A stretch of DNA of 26,455 nt from Fidelibacterota bacterium (lineage in GTDB: Bacteria > Fidelibacterota > UBA8477), in the NCBI GenBank assembly GCA_021734045.1, contig JAIPJR010000040.1:1-26455 (forward strand). The letters run 5' to 3'. Of this stretch, positions 12,302-16,199 are shown in pieces (within the stretch, counting starts at the first letter, position 1; each line of letters begins with the position of its first letter). Under the pieces are notes generated by a model, which worked only from the letters and a program-made list of their open reading frames with translations, was not told where the DNA came from and searched no databases. The position numbers were made by a program, and so were the translations under genes.

Positions 12302-13612
12302 ATGACACAATCAAAAAAATATTTTATTGAAACCTACGGCTGCCAGATGAATGTGTATGATTCTGAGTTAGTGGCCGGAATCCTGGAGAAGGAAGCTTAT
12401 CAGCGTGCCGATTCGGTGGAAGTGGCGGATATTATTTTTCTTAATACCTGTTCGGTACGGGAACACGCCGAGGACAAGGTTCATGCCCGGCTGGGCGTTC
12501 TGAAAGAGCAGAAAGAAAAAAACCCGGATACGATCATCGGCGTATTGGGCTGTATGGCTCAAAATCTGCGCGATGATTTGTTGGTGAAAAAACCTTATGT
12601 TGATGTAATTCTGGGACCCGATTCCTATCGCCGATTACCCGAGTTGCTCAAAACCCATTCTGGCCCCATGGATCACGTGGTGGATACGAAACTGAGCCGC
12701 ATGGAGGTTTATGAAGGTCTTTTCCCGGCTCGTCGTGAAGGGGTAGGAGCCTGGGTCAGCATTATGCGGGGGTGTGATAAATTTTGCACTTTTTGTATCG
12801 TCCCATTTACGCGGGGTCGTGAGCGCAGCCGAACAGTTGAAAGCATCGTCAATGAAGTCCAGCAAATCGCGGCTGACGGTTTCAAAGAGGTAACCCTGCT
12901 GGGTCAGAATGTGAATTCCTATCGTAGCGACAGCGCTAACTTTCCGGAGTTGCTGGAAGCTGTATCAGAAATTCCGGGCATCGAGCGCATTCGTTACACA
13001 TCGCCTCATCCCCAGGATATTGATGATGCGTTAATAAAAGTGCATCGCAACAATCCCAAGGTCTGTAATCATATCCATTTTCCACTACAGGCTGGTTCAG
13101 ATCGTGTTCTGGAACGCATGAACCGTACCTACACGAAACAGCATTTTATAGATCTGGCGGAGAAAATGCGACAAATGATACCGGGGTTAGCGCTGAGTAC
13201 GGATATTATTGCAGGGTTCCCCGGGGAGACTGAAGCAGATTTTCAGGAAACTTTGGACGTAATGCATGCGGTAAAATTCGATTCAGCGTTTACCTTTAAG
13301 TATTCAGCACGACCAGGTACCAAGGCAGCGGAGTTTGAGGATTCGGTACCGGAAGAGGTCAAGCAGAACCGATTGGAACGCTTAATTGACATTCAACGGC
13401 AACACACCCTGGAGCGAAACCGGGGGCATGTGGGCGAGACGCAGCTGGTGTTGGTGGAGAAAGATTCCAGAAAATCCACCCGCCAGCATATGGGACGCAC
13501 ACGGAATAATAAAATCGTCGTGTTTGACAAAGGGTCTGAGCAGGTCGGTGATTTGGTGAATGTGAAGATTACCGGCGCAGAAGGTGTAACATTGTTCGGG
13601 GAATTGGTTTGA
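12302..13612 (+). CDS. miaB: tRNA methylthiotransferase MiaB
   Basis: 436 residues, the normal size. MiaB is a radical-SAM enzyme that adds a methylthio group to i6A37 of tRNAs reading UNN codons. The N-terminal UPF0004 domain holds the auxiliary-cluster cysteines C14 (TYGCQMN), C50 (NTCSVRE) and C84 (GCMAQ). The radical-SAM triad is C158, C162 and C165 in RGCDKFCTFCIVPFTRGRE. A TRAM domain closes the protein. TYGCQMNVYDSE and RGRERSR mark MiaB rather than MtaB or RimO. There is no Shine-Dalgarno before the ATG; a tiny leader frame stops immediately in front of it. lapA starts 12 nt downstream. Confidence 0.95.
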   Translation: MTQSKKYFIETYGCQMNVYDSELVAGILEKEAYQRADSVEVADIIFLNTCSVREHAEDKVHARLGVLKEQKEKNPDTIIGVLGCMAQNLRDDLLVKKPYVDVILGPDSYRRLPELLKTHSGPMDHVVDTKLSRMEVYEGLFPARREGVGAWVSIMRGCDKFCTFCIVPFTRGRERSRTVESIVNEVQQIAADGFKEVTLLGQNVNSYRSDSANFPELLEAVSEIPGIERIRYTSPHPQDIDDALIKVHRNNPKVCNHIHFPLQAGSDRVLERMNRTYTKQHFIDLAEKMRQMIPGLALSTDIIAGFPGETEADFQETLDVMHAVKFDSAFTFKYSARPGTKAAEFEDSVPEEVKQNRLERLIDIQRQHTLERNRGHVGETQLVLVEKDSRKSTRQHMGRTRNNKIVVFDKGSEQVGDLVNVKITGAEGVTLFGELV

Positions 13613-13624
13613 GAGGGTAAAAAT

Positions 13625-13957
13625 ATGCGTGAATTAAAGATTTTCGTGATACTGGTATTGGTTCTGGCGGCGGTTTGGCTACTCACCCAGAATAGTGCGG
13701 CGGTGGATATCAAATTGTTCAGCCTCTCTTATACCGGTATTCCACTGTACCTGGTCATCCTGTTGGCTTTTGCCGTGGGTGCGCTGGTGGGATTTGGCTA
13801 TGGTGCTTCCCAAACACTGAAGCTCAAGAGCGATATTCGGGCGCTGAACCGGGAAAGGTTGAAGCTCCAGTCGGAAGTAGACCAACGCCGGGTCGCCATG
13901 CTGGACCGGGAAGATGATACGGAGACAACGGATGGTGATGTGAACTGGGACGCTTAA
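13625..13957 (+). CDS. lapA: LapA-domain (DUF1049) membrane protein
   Basis: 110 residues with two hydrophobic helices (~5-23 and ~39-60), then a charged coiled-coil tail (~65-95) and an acidic end. This is the layout of LapA/YciS, a small inner-membrane protein that works with LapB in LPS assembly in Enterobacteria. Small size makes sequence matching weak, but the next gene, 22 nt on, is a LapB-like TPR protein, so the pair supports the call. Confidence 0.8.
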   Translation: MRELKIFVILVLVLAAVWLLTQNSAAVDIKLFSLSYTGIPLYLVILLAFAVGALVGFGYGASQTLKLKSDIRALNRERLKLQSEVDQRRVAMLDREDDTETTDGDVNWDA

Positions 13958-13979: not shown

Positions 13980-15122
13980 ATGTCATTAGACTTCATATTC
14001 ATTGGACTGATTATCCTTATCCTGGCAGGCGGAGTGGTTATCTGGATGGTTTCACGACGAAAAAGCGGAACCCGGATGACCAGCCATGACCTGGAAATTC
14101 AAGGACTTAATTTGCTCCTCCAAAATCGTCCACAGGAGGCCTTGGCGGTTTTTCTCGATCTGGCGCGACGGGACACGAATAACCTGCGGGTTTATATGCA
14201 GGTCGCGGATATCTACCGGGAATTGGGGACGCCTCGCAAGTCCATTGACATTCACGAAGATTTACTCAATCGACCAGGAATCAGCGATCAATTTCGTATG
14301 ATGATATTTCAGAGTCTGGCTGAGGATTACGAAGCACTGGGACAGTACGAGAAAGCACTGGATTATGCCCGCAGTGTCTTGAAAATCAACAAACGAGATC
14401 CCTGGGCGATTCAAGCCAAGCATGATTACCATCGCGCGGCCGGCAATTGGGCAAAAGCCATCCGTGCATTTGACCGTTTGAAAAACATTAAACCCGATAT
14501 GGATGATCGCATTCCGGTGCTGTACAAAGTAGAAGAAGCTCTGGAGAAATTAAAAGCCGGCGAAATATCCGACGCAACAAGCCTATTAAAACAGGCTATT
14601 AAAATGGGTAAACCGGTACCGGCAGCCTATTATCATCTGGGGCAGATCAGTCAGAAATCGAGTCAGCTTAAAAATGCGATTGATTACTACACGACCTTTG
14701 CTGAGCTGGAGCCGGAATTGGGAAGTCTGGTATATCCTGAAATCGAAAAGATGTATTTTGAATTAAACCAGTTCGATTCTGTAGAACAGTTTTATACCCG
14801 ACTCAGAAAGAAACAACCGGAAAGTGTTGATATAGCAGTGGGATTGGCCAGTCATCTGGAACGCAAGGGAGAGTTACAAGAGGCATTATCCATCGTGGAT
14901 GAAGCACAGGTGCACAAACCTGACAGCCGCCGCCTGTCACTCATCCGGGTCAGCCTGCTGAACAAAATGGGTCGGGCTGATGCGGCTGATGCGCAGGTTC
15001 AGCGTATGCTAACCGCCGAATATCGAAAGAATAAGCTGACCTGTAAATTTTGTGGCTTTAATGCCGATTACCCGATTTACCTCTGTCCCAAATGCGGAAA
15101 ATTCACCTTCGACCATTCGTAA
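13980..15122 (+). CDS. lapB: LapB/YciM-like TPR protein with rubredoxin-type knuckle
   Basis: 380 residues, close to E. coli LapB (389). It has an N-terminal membrane helix (~3-23), a cytoplasmic TPR array (~35-340) and a C-terminal four-cysteine metal knuckle, C355/C358 and C369/C372 (LTCKFCGF and YLCPKCGKF). That three-part architecture is specific to LapB, which in E. coli brings LpxC to FtsH for degradation and so sets LPS levels. It sits directly after lapA and overlaps the SPOR gene by 1 nt (TAATG). Orthology is inferred from architecture and synteny; function outside Proteobacteria is less studied. Confidence 0.83.
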   Translation: MSLDFIFIGLIILILAGGVVIWMVSRRKSGTRMTSHDLEIQGLNLLLQNRPQEALAVFLDLARRDTNNLRVYMQVADIYRELGTPRKSIDIHEDLLNRPGISDQFRMMIFQSLAEDYEALGQYEKALDYARSVLKINKRDPWAIQAKHDYHRAAGNWAKAIRAFDRLKNIKPDMDDRIPVLYKVEEALEKLKAGEISDATSLLKQAIKMGKPVPAAYYHLGQISQKSSQLKNAIDYYTTFAELEPELGSLVYPEIEKMYFELNQFDSVEQFYTRLRKKQPESVDIAVGLASHLERKGELQEALSIVDEAQVHKPDSRRLSLIRVSLLNKMGRADAADAQVQRMLTAEYRKNKLTCKFCGFNADYPIYLCPKCGKFTFDHS

Positions 15123-15988
15123 TGCGAATTGTACAAACAGCAATAATCGCCGGCTTCATTCTCCTGGGCAGCGCTCTTGCACAGGACATCAAGCCTTACC
15201 TGGCCATGATTGAACGGGGGCAAGTGGACTCGGTTAGAGCTGCTTACGAACAGTTAGCGTACCAGTACCCCGGTAGTGTGGCGATACGCTATCTACGAGC
15301 GTTAATTGAGAGCGATGCCACCAAATCGGTAGCCATTTACAAAGACATTCTGCGCAATCATGTGAATTCAGAGTATGCGCCGGACGCCCTCATGTACCTT
15401 GGCGAGTACTATTACGCCCAGGGATTGTTTGTCCAAAGTCAATCGGTGTTAAAGCAATTAATCCGGATGCATCCGGAATTTCCCCGCCTGGCACACGCGG
15501 TGAATCTCATGTTACGCGGTGAAATTGTAGCCGGAGCAGTGGACAGTGCCAGAGCCGATTTGAATTGGGTGCGGGGCATTAAACCCGATTTAATTATTGA
15601 CATTCCGGCTGAATTAAAGGATGTGCAGCCCATGCAGGAAGCACGACTGGAAATGATGGAGCTGCAATCGGAGCAAAAAGCGGTTGATGAGCGCACGCCC
15701 AATAGGTTGGCAGCGCCCGCAACGCCATCATATCCACCTCCGACTCGTGCGCGGTACGAGTTGCAATGTGGTGCCTTCAGTAGCCAGAACAATGCAGATC
15801 TCCTGGCCAATCAGGTAGGTAGTTTGGGTTATGACGTGTCGGTAGAACAGAAGGTGGTTTCTGGCAAAACGCTTTATGTGGTTCTGGCGGGTAAATATTC
15901 GACCCGCGATGAGGCTGGTTATGAAGCTGAAAACATCAAAAATGCGCTGGGAATTGACAAACCCTTTCCCAAAACCATTGACCCTTAA
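15122..15988 (+). CDS. Secreted TPR-like SPOR-domain protein
   Basis: 288 residues from ATG 15122, which gives a clean signal peptide (1-20, ending GSALAQ) and a 1-nt overlap with the lapB stop. The middle (~22-150) is helical and TPR-like (YLGEYYYAQGLFVQSQSVL). A proline-rich linker (~190-210) leads to a SPOR domain at ~211-280 (YELQCGAFSS, then YVVLAGKYSTRDEA). SPOR domains bind denuded septal glycan, so the protein is likely periplasmic and concentrated at division sites. Its coupling to lapB suggests coordinated LPS and peptidoglycan growth, which is inference. The stop codon is only 8 nt before a tRNA-Sec gene. Confidence 0.85.
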   Translation: MRIVQTAIIAGFILLGSALAQDIKPYLAMIERGQVDSVRAAYEQLAYQYPGSVAIRYLRALIESDATKSVAIYKDILRNHVNSEYAPDALMYLGEYYYAQGLFVQSQSVLKQLIRMHPEFPRLAHAVNLMLRGEIVAGAVDSARADLNWVRGIKPDLIIDIPAELKDVQPMQEARLEMMELQSEQKAVDERTPNRLAAPATPSYPPPTRARYELQCGAFSSQNNADLLANQVGSLGYDVSVEQKVVSGKTLYVVLAGKYSTRDEAGYEAENIKNALGIDKPFPKTIDP

Positions 15989-15996
15989 ATTGATAT

Positions 15997-16088
15997 GGGA
16001 ATGCTTGTAGCCCGGTGGTTGCCGCAGCCTTCAAAGCTGCCGTGTTAGTGAAAAACTGACAGATAGGTTCGACTCCTATGCATTCCCG
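15997..16088 (+). tRNA. selC: Selenocysteine tRNA (anticodon UCA)
   Basis: All diagnostic features can be folded by eye. The acceptor stem is 8 bp (GGGAATGC with GCATTCCC). The D stem is 6 bp (GTAGCC with GGTTGC, including G-U pairs) with a 4-nt CGGT loop. The anticodon stem GCAGC/GCTGC encloses CTTCAAA with anticodon TCA. The long variable arm is TGTTAGT paired with ACTGACA over a GAAAA loop. The T stem ATAGG/CCTAT encloses TTCGACT. The discriminator is G, as in all tRNA-Sec, and CCA is not encoded. This 8+5 bacterial form is charged with serine and converted by SelA, then delivered to UGA by SelB. No good promoter fits the 8-nt gap upstream; a TTGACA at 15954-15959 lacks a matching -10, so co-transcription with the SPOR gene is likely. 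Confidence 0.96.
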
Positions 16089-16199
16089 CTATGAATTTTT
16101 ACGCATCGTCCCCGTTAAAATTCACACATCAAACCTTATTCATACTACAGCACTGTGGACGTCTGGTTTATAAATCTCATGGCTAGTCGATATAACAAA

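Follow-up and report, generated by a model that had tools for sequence, protein, structure and literature searches.

The DNA at positions 15997–16088 of the window (the whole 26,455-nt stretch analysed here) is very probably a functional selC gene for tRNA-Sec, belonging to a Neomarinimicrobiota bacterium whose selenocysteine (Sec) trait is complete, and forming the end of a miaB-lapA-lapB-SPOR-selC unit whose layout is ancestral and vertically inherited. The genome of the window (2.54 Mb in 119 contigs, 92% complete) is assigned to Candidatus Neomarinimicrobiota (SAR406), and the neighbouring lapB gene has named relatives only in the same phylum, the nearest being 92% identical. The genes of the region are listed in Table 1.

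Table 1. Features of the selC region in window coordinates
Feature	Positions	Strand	Evidence
miaB-type tRNA methylthiotransferase gene, with which the unit probably begins	12302–13612	+	Pfam UPF0004, Radical_SAM, TRAM; synteny
LapA-domain membrane protein gene	13625–13957	+	Pfam PF06305; synteny
LapB-like TPR protein gene, overlapping the SPOR gene by 31 nt	13980–15122	+	ORF; Pfam TPR; synteny
TPR-SPOR protein gene, directly 5′ of selC	15092–15988	+	ORF; Pfam SPOR and TPR; orthologue in 53/53 genomes
Spacer from SPOR stop to tRNA 5′ end (attgatat, 8 nt)	15989–15996	+	Sequence
selC, tRNA-Sec (UCA)	15997–16088	+	ARAGORN; Rfam RF01852; fold

A canonical tRNA-Sec gene

ARAGORN predicted a tRNA-SeC with anticodon TCA in the window (15997–16089), and the Rfam family RF01852 matched over its full length (positions 1–91 of 91) with 67.2 bits, compared to a gathering score of 47. 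The minimum-energy fold is an 8/5 cloverleaf with an 8-bp acceptor stem, a 6-bp D stem closed by a 4-nt loop, a 5-bp anticodon stem, a 7-bp variable arm and a 5-bp T stem. Its energy of −38.7 kcal/mol (z = −5.3) was equalled by none of 200 shuffled sequences. Acceptor and T stems add up to a stack of 13 bp (8+5), and the long variable arm, the UCA anticodon and the discriminator G73 (base 16088) are all present. The CCA end is not encoded in the gene, which is also the case for the tRNA genes of many bacteria. The first-pass annotation had read this structure by eye and proposed scoring it with a SelC covariance model; each structural item checked proved correct in ARAGORN, RF01852 and the computed fold, and the score is high.

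The 8/5 fold, UCA anticodon, 6-bp D stem with 4-nt loop, variable arm and G73 are shared with canonical bacterial selC as represented by RF01852, from which the RNA of the window itself does not differ; the 8/5 rule for the bacterial tRNA-Sec fold has been described previously (PMC5330540). The locus is a canonical, ordinary bacterial tRNA-Sec gene that is apparently working.

The Sec machinery is encoded elsewhere in the genome

The ORF list of the window contains no sel genes and no convincing selenoprotein, as the first-pass annotation had observed; genes ending in UGA have short extensions only, except for miaB, which runs into lapA. The same annotation had placed the machinery elsewhere in the genome, where we indeed found it. 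While selC lies on contig 4, profile searches revealed adjacent selA (502.7 bits) and selB (361.9 bits) genes on contig 31, both scoring above the curated cut-offs. The selD gene on contig 24 (389.2 bits) carries a single in-frame TGA at the catalytic site (KAAGUAGK), and in a peroxiredoxin gene on contig 20 a TGA replaces the codon of the peroxidatic Cys (FTFVUATE). Contig 20 ends within the latter gene, so that only part of the protein could be read.

The in-frame UGA codons with SECIS-like hairpins that had been suggested as a search target were detected in both selD and the peroxiredoxin gene. Immediately after the UGA of the peroxiredoxin gene lies a hairpin of −13.8 kcal/mol (z = −2.6). 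The SECIS-like hairpin of the genome's own selD, taken alone, has a weak z-score (−0.97). Across the phylum, the 45 nt from the selD codon onwards fold with a mean energy of −14.7 kcal/mol in UGA-type genes (n = 16) compared to −4.3 kcal/mol in Cys-type genes (n = 14), without overlap between the two groups (p = 4e-6, a nominal value because the sequences are related and relatedness was left uncorrected). With selA, selB, a UGA-type selD, a UGA-containing peroxiredoxin gene and the associated hairpins, the Sec-decoding trait is complete at the gene level in this genome. The tRNA would be charged with serine, which SelA would convert using selenophosphate supplied by SelD, and SelB would deliver the Sec-tRNA to UGA codons followed by a SECIS hairpin in at least the selD and peroxiredoxin genes.

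Our selenoprotein search of the genome covered selected families. A selenoprotein W-like protein (PF10262) had no match in the genome, and no Sec-containing formate dehydrogenase was found, since neither of the two genes for PF00384 molybdopterin oxidoreductases carries an in-frame UGA in the domain.

selC follows a SPOR gene throughout the phylum

Conservation analysis in 80 genomes of the phylum showed that, in all 53 with a tRNA-Sec above the cut-off, the immediate 5′ neighbour of selC is the same TPR-SPOR gene in the same orientation. The SPOR domain of the window's upstream protein is recognised by Pfam (PF05036, E = 3.6e-14), and its orthologues were identified with an HMM built from families f1 and f2, those of other families being found at E-values from 1e-21 to 1e-52. 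The two genes are separated by a median of 4 nt; 42 of the 53 genomes have a gap of no more than 8 nt and 45 one of no more than 20 nt, and in eight it measures 44–243 nt. In the window, the SPOR gene ends with a TAA stop at 15988, outside the tRNA, which bears out the 8-nt distance given in the first-pass annotation. Order-level relatives retain the run M23 peptidase, miaB, lapA, lapB, SPOR and selC, and a wider sample of ten genomes from other families likewise has miaB, then lapB, then SPOR ahead of selC.

Judged from these gene orders, the SPOR-selC arrangement is ancestral to the phylum, vertically inherited and far from a chance association. Both the tight linkage to a protein gene and the lack of sel genes nearby had been called odd; they are instead the normal state of the phylum, and the order and spacing seen throughout explain the 8-nt gap as inherited layout. 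In the window's genome, selC does not adjoin selA or selB, which lie on a contig other than that of selC (31 and 4, respectively).

An overlap of 8 nt is found in seven genomes of family f9 (loci L118, L119, L120, L123, L125, L127 and L128), where the SPOR frame enters selC and its UGA stop corresponds to nucleotides 6–8 of the tRNA (tGGGAATGA). RNase P cleavage at these loci would take the stop codon off the SPOR mRNA.

In selABC operons, selC likewise lies behind protein genes in a presumed operon (PMC5330540), whereas here it follows miaB, lapA, lapB and SPOR. Moreover, selC genes nested in or overlapping selB have been reported (PMC8124441). These share with our loci a tRNA-Sec gene that abuts or overlaps a co-oriented protein gene, with an upstream stop within the tRNA in f9, but the partner in Neomarinimicrobiota is the TPR-SPOR gene and the window itself has no overlap. 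We found no report of a conserved SPOR-selC unit in the open-licence literature searched.

Distribution and loss of the Sec trait

In the 80-genome survey, where incomplete assemblies limit every statement of absence, tRNA-Sec scored above the cut-off in 53 genomes and selA in 57, with both present in 50; thus, 50 of the 57 selA-bearing genomes also have a tRNA-Sec. The first-pass annotation had considered that the lineage might have been thought to lack Sec, and not without reason: a 2016 survey (PMC5029168, Table 1) counted three SAR406 single-cell genomes among those with an orphan SelD and no Sec trait. In contrast, most genomes of the same phylum studied here have the complete trait, suggesting that the earlier listing is explained by incompleteness or by true loss in some families. 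The Sec trait is therefore widespread in a marine phylum from which orphan-SelD genomes had been listed.

Seven genomes have selA only. In two of them (G020, G033) selC is truncated where a contig ends, and the assemblies of G016, G030, G062 and G079 include neither selC nor a SPOR orthologue. In the seventh, G054, the SPOR gene is present and followed by an apparent alaS, with no tRNA behind it. No tRNA was found near selA in G030, G054, G062, G079 or G016 either. At L131 (G054 contig 52), L133 (G030) and L134 (G062) a full selA was seen without a recognisable tRNA-Sec; G054 is 96% complete and has a UGA-type selD. In these three genomes, the tRNA-Sec may be of an unusual form and lie elsewhere, or it may fall into an assembly gap.

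Conversely, three genomes carry the tRNA without a full selA. The selA gene of G014 is cut by a contig end. G012 has a mutated selC, no selA and no full selD, and G055 retains a selA fragment with stops; these two look like recent losses of the trait. Neither selA nor tRNA-Sec exceeded the cut-off in 20 genomes, comprising families f6 and f7 plus G025, which keeps a degenerate selC remnant behind its SPOR gene. From the apparent losses in G012 and G055 and the remnant in G025, we conclude that selC decays in place where the Sec trait has been lost. Apparent stages of decay without an intact selA are visible as altered D-arm positions (L112 in G012, L122 in G055) and as a degenerate gene (L132 in G025). 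In this phylum, selC can be located reliably by its SPOR neighbour, and so can decayed copies that record the loss of the trait.

Two further observations were made in the survey. In the single-contig genome G069, the tRNA-Sec family gives an additional hit (G069:C1:767661-767747) that barely exceeds the cut-off with 49.8 bits and may be another tRNA with a long variable arm. Furthermore, locus L072 (334-2532) appears, judged by sequence, to encode a fusion protein in which a cysteine-desulfurase-like (NifS) domain is followed by a Cys-type SelD, and open frames of ~740 aa suggest the same NifS-SelD fusion in other f9, f12 and f13 genomes.

Expression of selC and alternative readings

Phylum-wide gene order and tight spacing provide good support for the predicted co-transcription of selC with the SPOR gene. 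A scan for sigma-70-like sites detected no promoter-like site on the + strand in ~1.4 kb upstream of selC. Synonymous conservation in 17 related genomes, which we analysed because an internal promoter might raise it, shows no clear rise in the last SPOR codons (0.41–0.56 in the last windows compared to 0.34–0.58 elsewhere, the first window aside). Given the short distance to SPOR, the flat synonymous conservation at the SPOR 3′ end and the absence of any recognisable promoter, selC is most likely transcribed as the last gene of a miaB-lapA-lapB-SPOR-selC unit. As expected from general tRNA biology, RNase P would cut the SPOR mRNA at 15997 to release the 5′ end of the tRNA, and 3′ nucleases would trim its 3′ end before CCA addition.

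These same data make it unlikely that selC is driven by its own promoter, located towards the 3′ end of the SPOR coding sequence, with no more than a positional link between the two genes. E. coli-type selC genes do have promoters of their own, and the eight genomes with the widest gaps would have room for one; against this stand the missing sigma-70-like site, the unremarkable last SPOR codons and a tight spacing that is maintained across families. A relic or suppressor-like tRNA that survives although Sec insertion is gone is extremely improbable here. Such relics exist in the phylum, as in G012, G055 and G025, and the first-pass annotation had raised this reading for the case of a genome without selA and selB. 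However, both genes are present and adjacent in the window's own genome, the tRNA folds perfectly, and the intact selA, selB and UGA-type selD refute a relic on genomic grounds.

The junction could also be a regulatory device in which the ribosome terminating on the SPOR gene covers the acceptor stem and blocks RNase P, while RNase P removes an overlapping stop codon, so that SPOR synthesis and tRNA-Sec maturation compete. The short gaps in 42 of the 53 genomes and the stop codon inside selC in family f9 would fit such a device, and a similar effect has been proposed for selC nested in selB (PMC8124441). Nevertheless, we consider it improbable: in the window the stop codon lies outside the tRNA, and the gaps of 44–243 nt in eight of the 53 genomes mean that coupling of SPOR and selC is not obligatory. 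To our knowledge, there is also no functional link between SPOR proteins and selenium. Slimmer still are the chances of a phylum-wide mechanical coupling of SPOR translation to tRNA-Sec maturation, by which Sec capacity would be tuned by an envelope and tRNA-modification operon and of which the f9 overlap would be the extreme form. With tight linkage throughout the phylum and an overlap in one family, a coupling between mRNA translation and tRNA processing becomes testable.

In the stretch 12302–13957, at the other end of the proposed selC-terminated unit, the miaB stop codon is UGA and lapA follows in the same frame four codons later. A MiaB-LapA read-through fusion would be possible from this shared frame, which is probably a coincidence.
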